This document shows, one piece after another, positions 17,179 to 24,184 of a stretch of 26,426 bases of DNA (the stretch's first letter is position 1; the number at the start of each line of letters is the position of its first letter). The position numbers and the translations under genes were made by a program. The notes beneath the pieces were generated by a model. The model was not told the DNA's origin. It saw only the letters and a program-made list of their open reading frames with translations, and ran no database searches. The DNA lies in IMG/VR virus record IMGVR_UViG_3300027851_000116, positions 1 to 26,426 of that record; one strand, 5' to 3'. The stretch comes from a virus.

Positions 17179-17506
17179 AGTAAAAAGATTCCCCACTTAT
17201 ATATACGCAAATTACAACCGCTTACCCGTCACATTTTGAGAAGATGTTACACAACTGTTACATTAGAGACCGATAATCGGAATATCAGCCCAGTTATCCC
17301 CAACATATCCACAAACAGTATCCGGAAAATAATTAGGACCCTATACACCATCTCAGGCGCGCGCGAGGTTAAAACCCCCGGGTCAAGCCTATTGTCTACT
17401 AGCTCAGTAGGGAAAAAATGCTTGCCAGCCCTGCACGTTCGGGGGATATGCACACTAGTCCCCCCACGTCTTTGACGAGGGAGGGGGCAGGCTGAGACTG
17501 TATTAC
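17179..17506. other. AT-rich part of the divergent control region, possible replication origin
   Basis: No gene is convincing here. The stretch has AT-rich DNA (TTATATATA near 17197), TGTTACA twice 11 bases apart (17245-17251, 17256-17262), a palindrome CCGAT-A-ATCGG (17270-17280), and two neighbouring DnaA-box-like 9-mers, TTATCCCCA (17294-17302) and ATATCCACA (17305-17313), each one base off TTATCCACA. A hairpin GGGGGA/TCCCCC lies near 17433-17455. The strand bias of G and T in the flanking genes switches across this region. These facts fit an origin, but nothing here proves it. Confidence 0.4.
17294..17313 (+). promoter_or_regulatory. Two adjacent DnaA-box-like sites
   Basis: TTATCCCCA and ATATCCACA are two bases apart and each matches eight of nine positions of the bacterial DnaA box TTATCCACA. 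They lie in an AT-rich part of the divergent region. They may recruit the host initiator for early replication. Confidence 0.4.
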
Positions 17507-17520
17507 TTAGGATACCCTAA
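17507..17520 (+). promoter_or_regulatory. Operator-like motif, copy 1 of the early-gene cluster
   Basis: TTAGGATACCCTAA is an inverted repeat (TTAGG-ATAC-CCTAA). A near-copy follows 40 bases later and a third about 120 bases later. With TTTC following it also resembles part of the DtxR/IdeR iron box (TTAGGTTAGCCTAACCTAA), matching about 14 of 19 positions by eye. Confidence 0.6.
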
Positions 17521-17546
17521 CTTTCTTATTCAATCAGTTGGTTAAG

Positions 17547-17560
17547 TAAGGATACCCTAA
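17547..17560 (+). promoter_or_regulatory. Operator-like motif, copy 2
   Basis: TAAGGATACCCTAA differs from copy 1 at one base. It ends three bases before a TTGACT box, so a protein bound here would contact RNA polymerase at the candidate early promoter. Confidence 0.6.
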
Positions 17561-17563
17561 GTC

Positions 17564-17593
17564 TTGACTTGGATGTGTGCGTCAGTGTAATTG
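17564..17593 (+). promoter_or_regulatory. Candidate rightward early promoter
   Basis: TTGACT (17564-17569) is followed after 18 bases by TAATTG (17588-17593). The -35 box is good and the -10 box moderate. A second TTGACT at 17698-17703 with TAGTGT 16 bases further is weaker. Both lie before the first rightward gene and next to operator-like motifs. Confidence 0.35.
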
Positions 17594-17627
17594 TATAACT
17601 GATTGTATTGATGTAGCTATTGCCTTG

Positions 17628-19506: not shown

Positions 19507-19622
19507 GCGCGCTTGTGACGGTTGAGCCGTTGCGCCGCTGTGCGTGTGGTTCGCCGTTCATGCTCAGGCTCACGCCACAGGGTGTGTGCTGCCAGCGTTG
19601 CGCTATCGCTGAGGAGGACTAA
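19503..19622 (+). CDS. Cysteine-rich micropeptide, 39 aa
   Basis: The frame opens at ATG 19503 inside the preceding stop (ATGA) and closes with TAA that overlaps the next ATG (TAATG). The product reads MSALVTVEPLRRCACGSPFM and LRLTPQGVCCQRCAIAEED. Five cysteines form CxC and CCxxC groups about 16 residues apart, as in a minimal zinc ribbon. The tight overlap on both sides supports it in spite of the size. Confidence 0.65.
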   Translation: MSALVTVEPLRRCACGSPFMLRLTPQGVCCQRCAIAEED

Positions 19623-19789
19623 TGGCCTCCGATACTCACATCTGCTGGGTTGATGACTCGATGTGTCCTGCGTGCGGTTCAGAGCTTCGCCCCACGGAGC
19701 GCGGCAGGATGGTCGCTGCGATTTTGTTTGTGACTGGCTTTCTGCTATTGTTGGGTTTTGCTGGGTGGATTGAAGGGGGTATGAACTAA
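19622..19789 (+). CDS. Zinc-ribbon micropeptide with one membrane segment, 55 aa
   Basis: The start overlaps the previous TAA. The product reads MASDTHICWVDDSMCPACGS, then ELRPTERGRM and a hydrophobic run (VAAILFVTGFLLLLGFAGWI). The first 20 residues hold three cysteines including CPAC. One membrane helix follows a basic patch, which predicts the cysteine part in the cytoplasm. This could be a membrane-tethered regulator or exclusion peptide; a holin is possible but a single short helix with a metal-site head is unusual for one. Confidence 0.65.
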   Translation: MASDTHICWVDDSMCPACGSELRPTERGRMVAAILFVTGFLLLLGFAGWIEGGMN

Positions 19790-19800
19790 GTTTCTGCGGG

Positions 19801-19972
19801 TGACTGGCAGGCTCTCACGTTCAAGCCGTGAGCACTCACTGTGAACACCTAGGAAGGCTTTAGGTGTTCTACCGGACAGTTCATGTGTCAAGGCTGAACT
19901 GTCCTCTGCAAGCCAGTGTTGGTTGAGTGGGGCGGTAAACCCTTCCCGCTTTACTCCTGGCACTGGCTTGCC
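19801..19972 (+). ncRNA. Candidate structured phage RNA, four consecutive hairpins
   Basis: The 243 bases between two gene blocks contain no gene but four strong stems. They are CTCACG/CGTGAG (19814-19819 with 19827-19832), GAACACCTA/TAGGTGTTC (19843-19851 with 19861-19869), GGACAGTTCA/TGAACTGTCC (19874-19883 with 19895-19904) and GCAAGCCAGTG/CACTGGCTTGC (19908-19918 with 19961-19971). Inside the last stem, after an asymmetric internal loop, GAGTGGGGCGG pairs with CCGCTTTACTC-type bases (19925-19935 with 19946-19956) using three consecutive G-U pairs. G-U pairs work only in the rightward transcript, so that strand is the likely RNA. No T tract follows, so these are not terminators. It is not a tRNA: no T-arm or acceptor stem is seen. 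Confidence 0.6.
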
Positions 19973-20032
19973 AATACTTTCGCGCACTGCATGGTGTAGT
20001 GTGTGGTTGATTGAAGGGTGGAGGGTTGTGTG

Positions 20033-20776
20033 ATGAAAACATTTTTTAAGGCAATTAGGCCGGATGGTGGAAGTTTTAACAGTCCCGAGTTTAAGTGGGC
20101 TGTTGAGCCTGGCGGGGTGACGGTGCATCCCGCGTTCGATAAGCGGGCTGGTAGTGCTGCTGGTTATTTGTCTGTGGCTACTGTGGCGACGGATTGTACG
20201 GGCATGTCGTGGCCTTGCCGTTTGTTAGAGGTTGCGCCTGTCGGGTGTCGCGTGTTCACGCCCGATAGCGTGGCGCTGCCGAATAAGCGTGCTGGTCGTG
20301 CGTTCCGCACAGTGCGTGAGCTGGATGCTAGTGCAGTATTTGGCCCACAGGGTGCGGAGGTGGTGGCATTTCTGGCATCGTTCCCGACATTAACTGGCGA
20401 GCAGTGGCAGGCTTTGGTTGCTTCTAGGGCTGCTTCTAGGGATGCTTCTTGGGCTGCTTCTAGGGCTGCTTCTAGGGCTGCTTCTAGGGCTGTTTCTAGG
20501 GCTGCTTCTAGGGATGCTTCTTGGGCTGCTTCTTGGGATGCTTCTTGGGCTGCTTCTTGGGATGCTTCTTGGGCTGCTTCTTGGGATGCTTCTAGGGATG
20601 CTTCTTGGGCTGCTTCTTGGGCTGCTTCTAGGGCTGCTCTGGGTCTCCTGGTTCGTGACCTGATTGGCACATCGGGCTTTACGCAAGCGTATTATGATGC
20701 GCTCACGTCTGATTGGCGTCGTATTGTTGGCCCGATTCATGCCGATGATGTGGACATTTTCGAGGGAGTGAAATGA
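20033..20776 (+). CDS. Phage protein with an 18-unit Ala-Ser-[Arg/Trp]-[Ala/Asp] repeat, 247 aa
   Basis: ATG 20033 has GGAGGG about 8 bases upstream. Residues 1-130 form a beta-rich domain (MKTFFKAIRPDGGSFNSPEF, later GYLSVATVATDCTGMSWPCR and LLEVAPVGCRVFTPDSVALP) that I associate, from memory, with DUF7666-type phage proteins. Residues about 130-201 are 18 tandem four-residue units, ASRA, ASRD, ASWA or ASWD, with one VSRA. About 45 residues follow (LLVRDLIGTSGFTQAYYDAL). A period of four with small Ala/Ser faces and Trp/Arg on one side suggests a long helix or stacked coil, maybe for self-assembly. The gene overlaps the WhiB gene by four bases. Confidence 0.8.
   Translation: MKTFFKAIRPDGGSFNSPEFKWAVEPGGVTVHPAFDKRAGSAAGYLSVATVATDCTGMSWPCRLLEVAPVGCRVFTPDSVALPNKRAGRAFRTVRELDASAVFGPQGAEVVAFLASFPTLTGEQWQALVASRAASRDASWAASRAASRAASRAVSRAASRDASWAASWDASWAASWDASWAASWDASRDASWAASWAASRAALGLLVRDLIGTSGFTQAYYDALTSDWRRIVGPIHADDVDIFEGVK
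20420..20635 (+). repeat. Tandem array of 18 units of 12 bases
   Basis: The units follow GCTTCT[A/T]GGG[C/A]T and run without spacers for 216 bases inside the preceding gene. Only two positions vary regularly, changing Arg to Trp and Ala to Asp. Because the unit is a multiple of three, several other frames are open too; those are by-products. Such arrays change length easily by slippage. Confidence 0.9.
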
Positions 20777-22217: not shown

Positions 22218-23117
22218 ATGACTGAGGTAGTGATTTTCAGGGGACCCCCAGGGTCCGGCAAGAGCACGCACATTCGCAACACGATGACTGAGCGTGACGC
22301 GCGTATCAACAATGATGACCTTGTGGGGTCTATGTTCACCGGTTCGCGTCGCAAGGGGCAGGGTGCTATCTTGCACGAGCTACGCCTAGCGATGCTCAGC
22401 AGTCTGTTGAAGCAGGATCTTGATCGGGTGTTTGTAGATAACACGAATCTGCGCTTGTCTACGGTGAACGCTCTCGCCATGTGCGCATACAAGGGCGGGC
22501 ACACTGTAGTGGTGGATGATCGTTTCCTGCATACGCCCCTTGAGGTGTGCTTGTATCAGAATGAGCAGCGTGACAAGTCTGCTCGTGTGCCTGATGATGT
22601 GGTGAGGAAGATGCACGCGGAGGCTGGTAAGTTGAAGCCCTATGTGTCGCGTGACTATCCTCCTGAGCGCATGTATGTGCCTGACGCGAGTCTGCCGCCT
22701 GCGGTGATGTTTGACCTTGACGGTACACTGGCTGAGAAGCATGAGGGTCGCGGTATTTACGACATCTCTAGCGTGCACTTGGATTTGCCGCGCGCGAACG
22801 TGGTGAACCACTATTGGGGGGTTGTGAGGGACCAGTTTACTAACATACAACCGATCTTTCTGTCAGGTAGGGACGAGTCCTGCCGTGAGCAAACAGAGGA
22901 TTGGTTAACGGAGCACTTAAGTGTGAGGCATCCGATCTTGTTTATGCGCCCCGCTGGGGACGTGCGCCCAGACTTCGTAGTGAAGCACGAGATTTTCCAT
23001 GAGCATGTCGCCCCGAGCTGGAATGTGCTGTACTGCCTGGATGACCGCAATCAGGTGGTCGATATGTGGAGGCGTATCGGTGTGGAATGTTGGCAAGTTC
23101 AAGCGGGGAACTTCTAA
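22218..23117 (+). CDS. pnkp: T4 Pnkp-like polynucleotide 5'-kinase / 3'-phosphatase, 299 aa
   Basis: The enzyme makes broken RNA ends ligatable: the N-terminal kinase phosphorylates 5'-OH ends and the C-terminal phosphatase removes 2',3'-cyclic or 3' phosphates. The P loop is GPPGSGKST (residues 9-17). R118 aligns with T4 R126. The HAD phosphatase motif is DLDGTLA (166-172; D166 and D168), with LSGRDES at 215-221 and LDDRNQVVDMWRRIGVECWQ at 274-293, nearly identical to the end of T4 Pnkp from memory. Length (299) matches T4 (301). By eye the T4 R38 position is V36 here, the segment reading NNDDLVGSM; this should be checked. ATG 22218 directly follows the previous stop. The RNA ligase gene starts on its last base. 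Confidence 0.92.
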   Translation: MTEVVIFRGPPGSGKSTHIRNTMTERDARINNDDLVGSMFTGSRRKGQGAILHELRLAMLSSLLKQDLDRVFVDNTNLRLSTVNALAMCAYKGGHTVVVDDRFLHTPLEVCLYQNEQRDKSARVPDDVVRKMHAEAGKLKPYVSRDYPPERMYVPDASLPPAVMFDLDGTLAEKHEGRGIYDISSVHLDLPRANVVNHYWGVVRDQFTNIQPIFLSGRDESCREQTEDWLTEHLSVRHPILFMRPAGDVRPDFVVKHEIFHEHVAPSWNVLYCLDDRNQVVDMWRRIGVECWQVQAGNF

Positions 23118-24184
23118 TGACCAAACTGAGTGCACTGTTCCCACCCGCTGACCTAGCGCGGGCAGTCTTGGACGGCTACGTGCGCGTACAAACGCACCCT
23201 ACGCTCCCCTGGTCCATCTTCAACTACACCGACAAGGCGAGTTGGGAGAACTATTGGACCCCCGTCACATTGCAGTGTCGCGGGCTTGTCATAGACGATA
23301 AGGGTAACATTATTGCCCGCCCGTTTCCCAAGTTCTTCAACTACGGCCAGCCTGGCGCTGCCGATATTGGTTTGGAGGATGAGATTGTGGCGTTCGACAA
23401 AGCTGACGGTAGTCTTGGTATTTTGTTGCCGAATGGGGAGGTGTGCACGCGGGGTAGTTTCACGTCCGAGCAGGCCGTGTGGGCTACTACTTGGTGGAAG
23501 GAGACTCGCGGTAGTCGCATGATCCACCCTGATATCACACAGCTCTTTGAGATTGTGTATCCGGGGAACCGTATCGTGATCGACTACGGGGACATTGAGG
23601 GGCTAATTGCGCTGGGTTCTATTCACATCGAGACGGGCGACTTCTCGCCACCGTTGCAGCGCAGTGTTTCCGAGTACAGGGTGGTTGCACAGTTCCCTCA
23701 CAGGACACTACAGCACGCCCTCTCAGCCCCACCTAGGGCTAACGCCGAGGGACTTGTCATCTGGAAGCCAAGCACGAATGAGCGTGTAAAAATCAAGTAC
23801 GACGAATATGTACGTTTGCACAAGTTCCTTACGGGTGTGAATGAGCGCCACATTTGGGAAGTACTCGCAGCTAACGGTGACACTGCTGTAGCCTTTAGCG
23901 GCGCTCCTGACGAGTTCCACGCTTGGATTAAGCAAGTCTCTGATCGTTTGTTGGCTGAGTTTGATGCGATGCACGATAAGGTAACAGTGGAATACTTGAC
24001 GATTGTGCGTGAGCTGCCATTCGTGCACGAAAGGAAGGTGTTTGTGGAGCAGGTGATTGACCGGCAAGACAAGGCTTTCCTGTTCGCCCTCTATGATGGG
24101 AAGCAGGTTGATGCTATGATTTGGCGTATGCTCAAGCCTAAAGGTGGGGCCACATTTAGAAAGGTAGACTCGGATGCAGACTAA
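23117..24184 (+). CDS. rnlA: T4 Rnl1-like RNA ligase, 355 aa
   Basis: It seals RNA 5'-phosphate to 3'-OH using ATP, completing repair after Pnkp. Motif I is KADGS (K95 the likely adenylated lysine). RGLVIDDKGNIIARPFPKFF (55-74) is the typical Rnl1 segment before it. FEIVYPGNRIV (144-154) fits motif III or IIIa, EGLVIW (211-216) motif IV, and VKIKYDEY (224-231) motif V. The helical C terminus of about 120 residues corresponds in size to the tRNA-specific domain of T4 Rnl1 (374 aa), but I cannot align it by eye. ATG 23117 overlaps the Pnkp stop by one base (TAATG), so both are made from one message. All expected catalytic motifs are present. Confidence 0.92.
   Translation: MTKLSALFPPADLARAVLDGYVRVQTHPTLPWSIFNYTDKASWENYWTPVTLQCRGLVIDDKGNIIARPFPKFFNYGQPGAADIGLEDEIVAFDKADGSLGILLPNGEVCTRGSFTSEQAVWATTWWKETRGSRMIHPDITQLFEIVYPGNRIVIDYGDIEGLIALGSIHIETGDFSPPLQRSVSEYRVVAQFPHRTLQHALSAPPRANAEGLVIWKPSTNERVKIKYDEYVRLHKFLTGVNERHIWEVLAANGDTAVAFSGAPDEFHAWIKQVSDRLLAEFDAMHDKVTVEYLTIVRELPFVHERKVFVEQVIDRQDKAFLFALYDGKQVDAMIWRMLKPKGGATFRKVDSDAD

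Follow-up and report, generated by a model that had tools for sequence, protein, structure and literature searches.

A 42-base stretch of phage DNA (19798..19839, + strand) carries one copy of what is almost certainly a real conserved RNA element. It corresponds to that half of a tRNA which holds the T-arm and the acceptor stem, with a short bulge resembling a D-loop, and we read it, with a probability of roughly 0.6 and on the strength of sequence comparison, as an intergenic punctuation mark at which host RNase P, and perhaps RNase Z, would process polycistronic phage mRNA. The window, by which we mean the whole stretch of DNA analysed, is an entire IMG/VR record of 26,426 bases, listed without completeness, and its source is a tailed phage. 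Structural genes for the terminase, portal and major head protein run leftward in it, and a block of small genes runs rightward. Because the terminase is 44-45% identical to Streptomyces phage terminases and a repeat protein resembles Propionibacterium and Clavibacter phage proteins, these sequences indicate that the host is probably an actinobacterium. The element lies in the sense orientation, 8 nt past the TAA (19787-19789) of a small ORF for 55 amino acids with a weak Zn-ribbon-like N-terminus (19622..19789, + strand), and upstream of the repeat-protein gene (phrog_8332; 20033..20776, + strand), which likely starts at ATG 20033 behind GGAGG at 20020-20024. Within that gene, 15-base repeats at 20418-20640 encode a WAASRDAS-like repeat, and the phrog_8332 protein also occurs in Propionibacterium and Clavibacter phages.

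In the window copy, the acceptor-like stem is formed by a 5′ strand GGGUG (19798..19802, + strand) and a 3′ strand CACUC (19833..19837, + strand), with one G-U pair. Between them lie an 11-nt D-loop-like bulge, ACUGGCAGGCU (19803..19813, + strand), and a T-arm mimic placed by model and alignment (19814..19832, + strand), which has a 6-bp stem CUCACG/CGUGAG and the loop UUCAAGC; the discriminator-like A19838 and C19839 complete the element. G19806-G19807 is the invariant GG of the family, and C19804-G19810 and G19811-C19826 are the covarying pairs 7-13 and 14-29 described below, so that all family features, namely stems of 5 and 6 bp, the 11-nt GG bulge, the T-loop, both additional pairs and the R-C flank, are present. 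R1, a model built without the window copy, scores this copy at 53.6 bits (E 7.4e-14) and has no other match above 10.1 bits in the window.

The first-pass annotation had described this region as an RNA of about 170 bases with four consecutive hairpins, and the perfect stems of 6, 9, 10 and 11 pairs are indeed present on the + strand. Hairpin 1 (6 bp, 19814-19819/19827-19832) is the T-arm mimic. Hairpin 2 (9 bp, or 11 bp when inner pairs are counted, 19843-19851/19861-19869) follows directly 3′ of the element, and then come hairpin 3 (10 bp, 19874-19883/19895-19904, span 19874..19904) and hairpin 4 (11 bp, 19908-19918/19961-19971, span 19908..19971), which runs on inward through an internal loop to a second stem with G-U pairs, as had been noted. 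Equally in line with the first reading, the 170-base region has no tRNA gene by ARAGORN and no U-tract, and the T-run of an intrinsic terminator follows none of the four hairpins; it also matches no Rfam family. None of 200 dinucleotide shuffles is as stable as the region (z −4.8), and the region's z of −5.85 is the lowest among 119 tiles over 16.8-26.4 kb. This signal is due to hairpins 2, 3 and 4, whose individual z values are −4.5, −4.6 and −6.9, and not to hairpin 1, which alone has an unexceptional energy (z −0.1) and owes its support to comparison; by energy alone, the window copy shows no preference for the elbow-mimic fold. Hairpins 3 and 4 (19874-19971) are very stable elements with no relatives found and no U-tract.

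That the whole stretch acts as one 170-base phage small RNA or riboswitch, as first proposed, is very improbable despite its strong folding. Only the first 42 bases (19798-19839) are conserved, starting 3 nt upstream of the border first drawn at 19801, and nucleotide searches found relatives neither of hairpins 2-4 nor of the whole 170 bases. Moreover, one relative (L195) has the element with just one companion hairpin. The idea of a riboswitch-like leader of the repeat-protein gene is not supported either, since homologues of this gene in L005, Propionibacterium phages and the Clavibacter phage CN1A lack an element upstream, and elsewhere the element precedes many unrelated genes. What stands is an apparently undescribed structured RNA that functions at the RNA level and is read from the rightward strand: Rfam has no entry for the covarying family to which hairpin 1 belongs, and the compensatory changes that the earlier reader had looked to a covariance model to reveal were found in the stems of this family.

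The first lead to the family came from a permissive nucleotide search in which the hairpin region was the sole query; it gave weak matches at hairpin 1. There, 40-51 bases match unannotated intergenic DNA in eleven records of R4-like Streptomyces phages, and 29 bases match Mycobacterium Send513-like phages. A consensus query then matched 162 phage records, including 113 of Streptomyces, 29 of Mycobacterium and some of Gordonia and Riemerella, a tally in which a few of the weakest matches are ordinary tRNA genes. About 330 copies were collected from phages, prophages and mobile elements of Actinomycetota and Bacteroidota and from one Gemmatimonadota MAG. They share a 40-nt core in which columns 1-5 pair with 36-40 as the acceptor-like stem and columns 17-22 with 30-35 as the T-stem. 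Columns 6-16 form an 11-nt bulge with the consensus A-N-Y-G-G-C-A-N-R-C-A, which mimics a D-loop, and columns 23-29 the loop TTCRAGY; the core is followed by R and C. The GG at columns 9-10, C11 and A12 are nearly invariant.

Four observations speak for an RNA under selection. Viral contigs and 84,980 prokaryote genomes were scanned with a pattern of the bulge and T-arm, leaving out the acceptor stem; among the matches listed, the five acceptor pairs are complete in 163 of 178 distinct ones, and sliding the partner strand by 1-3 bases leaves a complete stem in only 0-3 of these same matches. Two further pairs, never used as search criteria, point the same way. Pair 7-13 is C-G in 143 copies, A-U in 59, G-C in 52, U-A in 5 and a wobble in 2, and is broken in none of 261. 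Pair 14-29 (A-U 165, G-C 71, C-G 9, U-A 6 and 7 wobbles) is formed in 258 of the 261 and broken in 3. The stem pairs themselves covary strongly in pair counts from 82 diverse sequences, which remained after 6 atypical copies had been taken out by hand from 88; since complete stems 1-5/36-40 and 17-22/30-35 were a condition for choosing these sequences, the counts are informative on which kinds of pairs occur and not on whether pairing is present. Strict copies number 20 in the phages Amela and Zenon together, against 0 in ten dinucleotide shuffles. Nearly all family copies score 46-68 bits with R1, two atypical Zenon copies reaching 28 and 15, and Estes with its tRNA genes gives at most 19.6 bits, from a partial T-arm only.

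The element occurs in many unrelated phages and is rare in bacterial chromosomes, where 34 stretches were found in the 84,980 genomes and the copies of a genome are gathered at a single site or a few sites; 4 of 297 Actinomycetes genomes are positive, in a sample that includes genomes already known to be so. Near chromosomal copies, Riemerella and a Flavobacteriales MAG have Mu-like transposition genes, Riemerella and Capnocytophaga have a phage ATPase family in common, and Actinocatenispora has an FtsK-like gene, so the element appears to be carried by mobile elements. In Bacteroidota phage-like loci (L243, L219 and L233), the first pair of the elements is U-A instead of G-C, and two of these loci (L243 and L233) contain Mu-like transposition genes. 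At another locus (L248, 6500-8000), a run of elements lies between small genes near an FtsK/SpoIIIE-like gene, and this locus may belong to an actinomycete conjugative element and not to a phage. The element is absent from many phages. With R1, no copy was found in phiC31, TM4, CN1A, Propionibacterium phages, Estes or L005, the last being the closest relative of the window phage found by terminase search and having the repeat-protein gene with no element upstream. The 1-kb region around the window copy has no direct DNA relatives among phages, and a search through three neighbouring proteins led only to L082 and to nothing useful.

The position of the copies relative to genes is highly regular. 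Within 80 nt after the stop of an open frame of at least 50 codons lie 298 of 333 copies, and the distance from stop to element peaks at 6 nt (33 copies), 7 nt (58) and 8 nt (42), with almost none shorter; the antisense control has no such peak. Amela has 8-9 copies, of which seven are intergenic, one is inside what is annotated as the start of gene 73 and a ninth is found by model at 48673-48715, and Zenon has at least 12, with 14 intergenic structures when four with a divergent bulge or loop are included; all copies in both are on the sense strand. Seven Amela copies fall within 5 kb (L089), nearly all of them directly upstream of another early gene. A stem of at least 7 bp occurs in the 35 nt after the element in 42% of copies as compared with 10% in shuffles, so hairpin 2 of the window is a typical companion. 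The order is also plain in L195, whose contig is that of L068, a relative of the window phage by its terminase: stop codon, 7 nt, element, hairpin, ribosome site, ATG.

Such an arrangement could also be expected of a cis-acting element for mRNA stability or message boundaries, whose compact fold would block exonucleases with no cleavage by tRNA enzymes and protect either the upstream message at its 3′ end or the downstream message at its 5′ end. The sense orientation, the intergenic position shortly past stop codons and the frequent second hairpin all agree with this possibility, which we nevertheless consider rather unlikely: a plain hairpin would be enough for it, and it leaves unexplained the invariant GG, the T-loop, pairs 7-13 and 14-29 and the R-C flank. 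The distance to the stop codon has a sharp lower limit near 6 nt, and the element is used repeatedly along early operons, which could instead suggest that it acts on the terminating ribosome, in release or re-initiation, with the spacing reflecting such ribosomes, or that it modifies RNA polymerase like put or EAR. This is unlikely, since the next start is typically 40-50 nt off, and 193 nt off in the window, where hairpins 2-4 lie between, and since the conservation at the flanks is that of tRNA ends, not of ribosome or polymerase signals.

Processing by tRNA enzymes, the reading preferred here, draws on these same flanks. Position 1 is G in 91% of copies, position +1, equivalent to 73, is A or G in 98% and position +2 (74) is C in 98%, while position +3 (75) avoids C, which is found there in 14 of 320 copies. 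Starting at the tRNA elbow, RNase P measures along the stack of T-arm and acceptor stem; the elbow is also clamped by RNase Z, for which CCA is an antideterminant (PMC4919913). As far as sequence and covariation tell, the element offers RNase P this stack with an elbow, G at position 1, purine 73 and C74, and from these features together with the avoidance of C at 75 we infer cutting by RNase P. The acceptor-like stem would stack on the T-arm and the GG of the bulge would dock into the T-loop like G18G19 in tRNA, as judged from tRNA structure, so that an elbow could form with neither anticodon nor D stem. Recognizing this elbow and the acceptor stem in phage mRNA, host RNase P would cut 5′ of G19798 and free the upstream message a few bases past its stop codon, and RNase Z would perhaps make a further cut behind A19838. 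A hairpin would then stand at the head of the downstream message and shield its 5′ end, each early gene would thereby get its own message, and the minimum spacing of about 6 nt would leave room for a 5′ leader. This reading has its weak points in the stacked helix, which is 11 bp as against 12 bp (7+5) in tRNA, a length that RNase P might or might not tolerate, in the base at −1, which is mostly A (70%), and in the 3′ end, which is RC and not RCC or RCCA. For the broader proposition that phages and mobile elements of several phyla employ a stand-alone elbow of about 42 nt, without an anticodon, as a signal between genes that can be reused to recruit host tRNA-processing enzymes for the cutting of polycistronic mRNA, we put the odds at about even.

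No Rfam model matches the window element or the family, and no earlier description was found in open-access papers, including genome papers on phages. tRNA-like RNA is known as a kind; its stand-alone minimal form as repeated intergenic phage punctuation appears to be new. The closest analogy is mitochondrial tRNA punctuation, where tRNA-shaped units likewise lie between genes of polycistronic transcripts on the sense strand. Those units are full tRNAs cut by RNase P and RNase Z, whereas here the unit is a predicted 42-nt mimic with neither D stem nor anticodon arm, and is found in phages and prophages. The RNase P-processed mascRNA and menRNA also place tRNA mimicry within a longer transcript, but they are eukaryotic and single copy and have tRNA folds larger and more complete than the element. 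Bacterial Y RNA (YrlA) contains a tRNA-like domain, so that T-arm mimicry is shared with a bacterial or phage RNA, whereas the present element is multicopy, intergenic and 42 nt long. An assignment to Y RNA was rejected in view of the absence of an Rfam match and of the TROVE domain of Ro60 (PF05731) from the 26.4-kb record, possibly a fragment.

With tRNA genes (RF00005) the element shares the T-arm, the D-loop GG, an acceptor-like stem and a purine discriminator, but it has no anticodon arm, D stem or CCA and no Rfam tRNA match; the window copy was rejected as a tRNA for want of an anticodon arm and a cloverleaf. A permuted tRNA or tmRNA was rejected too, since doubled sequence gave only poor ARAGORN calls with lowered thresholds or introns allowed. 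A few elements are called tRNAs by ARAGORN, with improvised anticodon arms; as it calls tRNA-Arg or tRNA-Ala at elements in L089 (3824-3906) and L237 (6880-6973), mimics of this kind may account for some of the tRNAs annotated in phages. The SAS/ESAS repeats of cluster K and the CR3/CR4 repeats of cluster M mycobacteriophages are likewise short, intergenic and from actinophages, and they were rejected as relatives since TM4 (K) and Estes (M) have no significant full-length R1 match.

Elbow mimicry would also suit a decoy or sponge for tRNA-binding proteins, such as modification enzymes, EF-Tu or defence tRNA nucleases. The first-pass annotation had listed a decoy, and it stays as a minor alternative only. 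Polynucleotide kinase-phosphatase and RNA ligase make up a gene pair of tRNA repair, and in the window a polynucleotide kinase-phosphatase gene adjoins a gene for T4-type RNA ligase (22218-24184). Even with such enzymes encoded by the window phage, a decoy is improbable: the element has no anticodon arm to serve as a target for anticodon nucleases, Amela has no annotated RNA repair gene, and a decoy gives no reason for many single copies each placed after a stop codon.

Apart from its function, this is a strongly covarying RNA family in well over 100 sequenced phage records, those of widely used laboratory phages of Streptomyces and Mycobacterium smegmatis among them. Its copies lie where the annotation shows nothing or, now and then, wrongly calls a tRNA. 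Should the punctuation mechanism hold, phages would hijack RNase P, on which almost all bacteria depend, and have it cut their own mRNAs, and the element would rank among the smallest natural tRNA mimics known; the gaps of about 90 nt kept between early genes of element-bearing phages would be explained, and this would be tRNA punctuation in bacteria, without tRNAs. The element could then also serve as a ready-made processing tag and as a clean way of testing the requirements of RNase P and RNase Z.

Some copies bear on annotation and on the limits of the family. As one element sits inside the annotated start of Amela AVT29_gp73 (L251, 47180-47992), this start is probably miscalled, the true one lying downstream and the annotation being too long. 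Divergent elements in Zenon (L252, 39511-39550, 39897-39936, 42640-42682 and 40334-40372) occupy the same kind of position and have the loop TTCGATT or bulges of AACGGTTTTCG, GTAAGGCGTA or 14 nt; they are perhaps a second subfamily. In L229 (4080-4440) and L237 (6850-7480), elements occur in tandem units of about 115 nt, within short AGCGAAGCGGAGC-like and GGCATGGC-like repeats, before a gene. Finally, nested inverted repeats of 19 and 12 nt lie between the leftward and rightward gene blocks of the window (17505-17608) and are possibly operators of divergent promoters.
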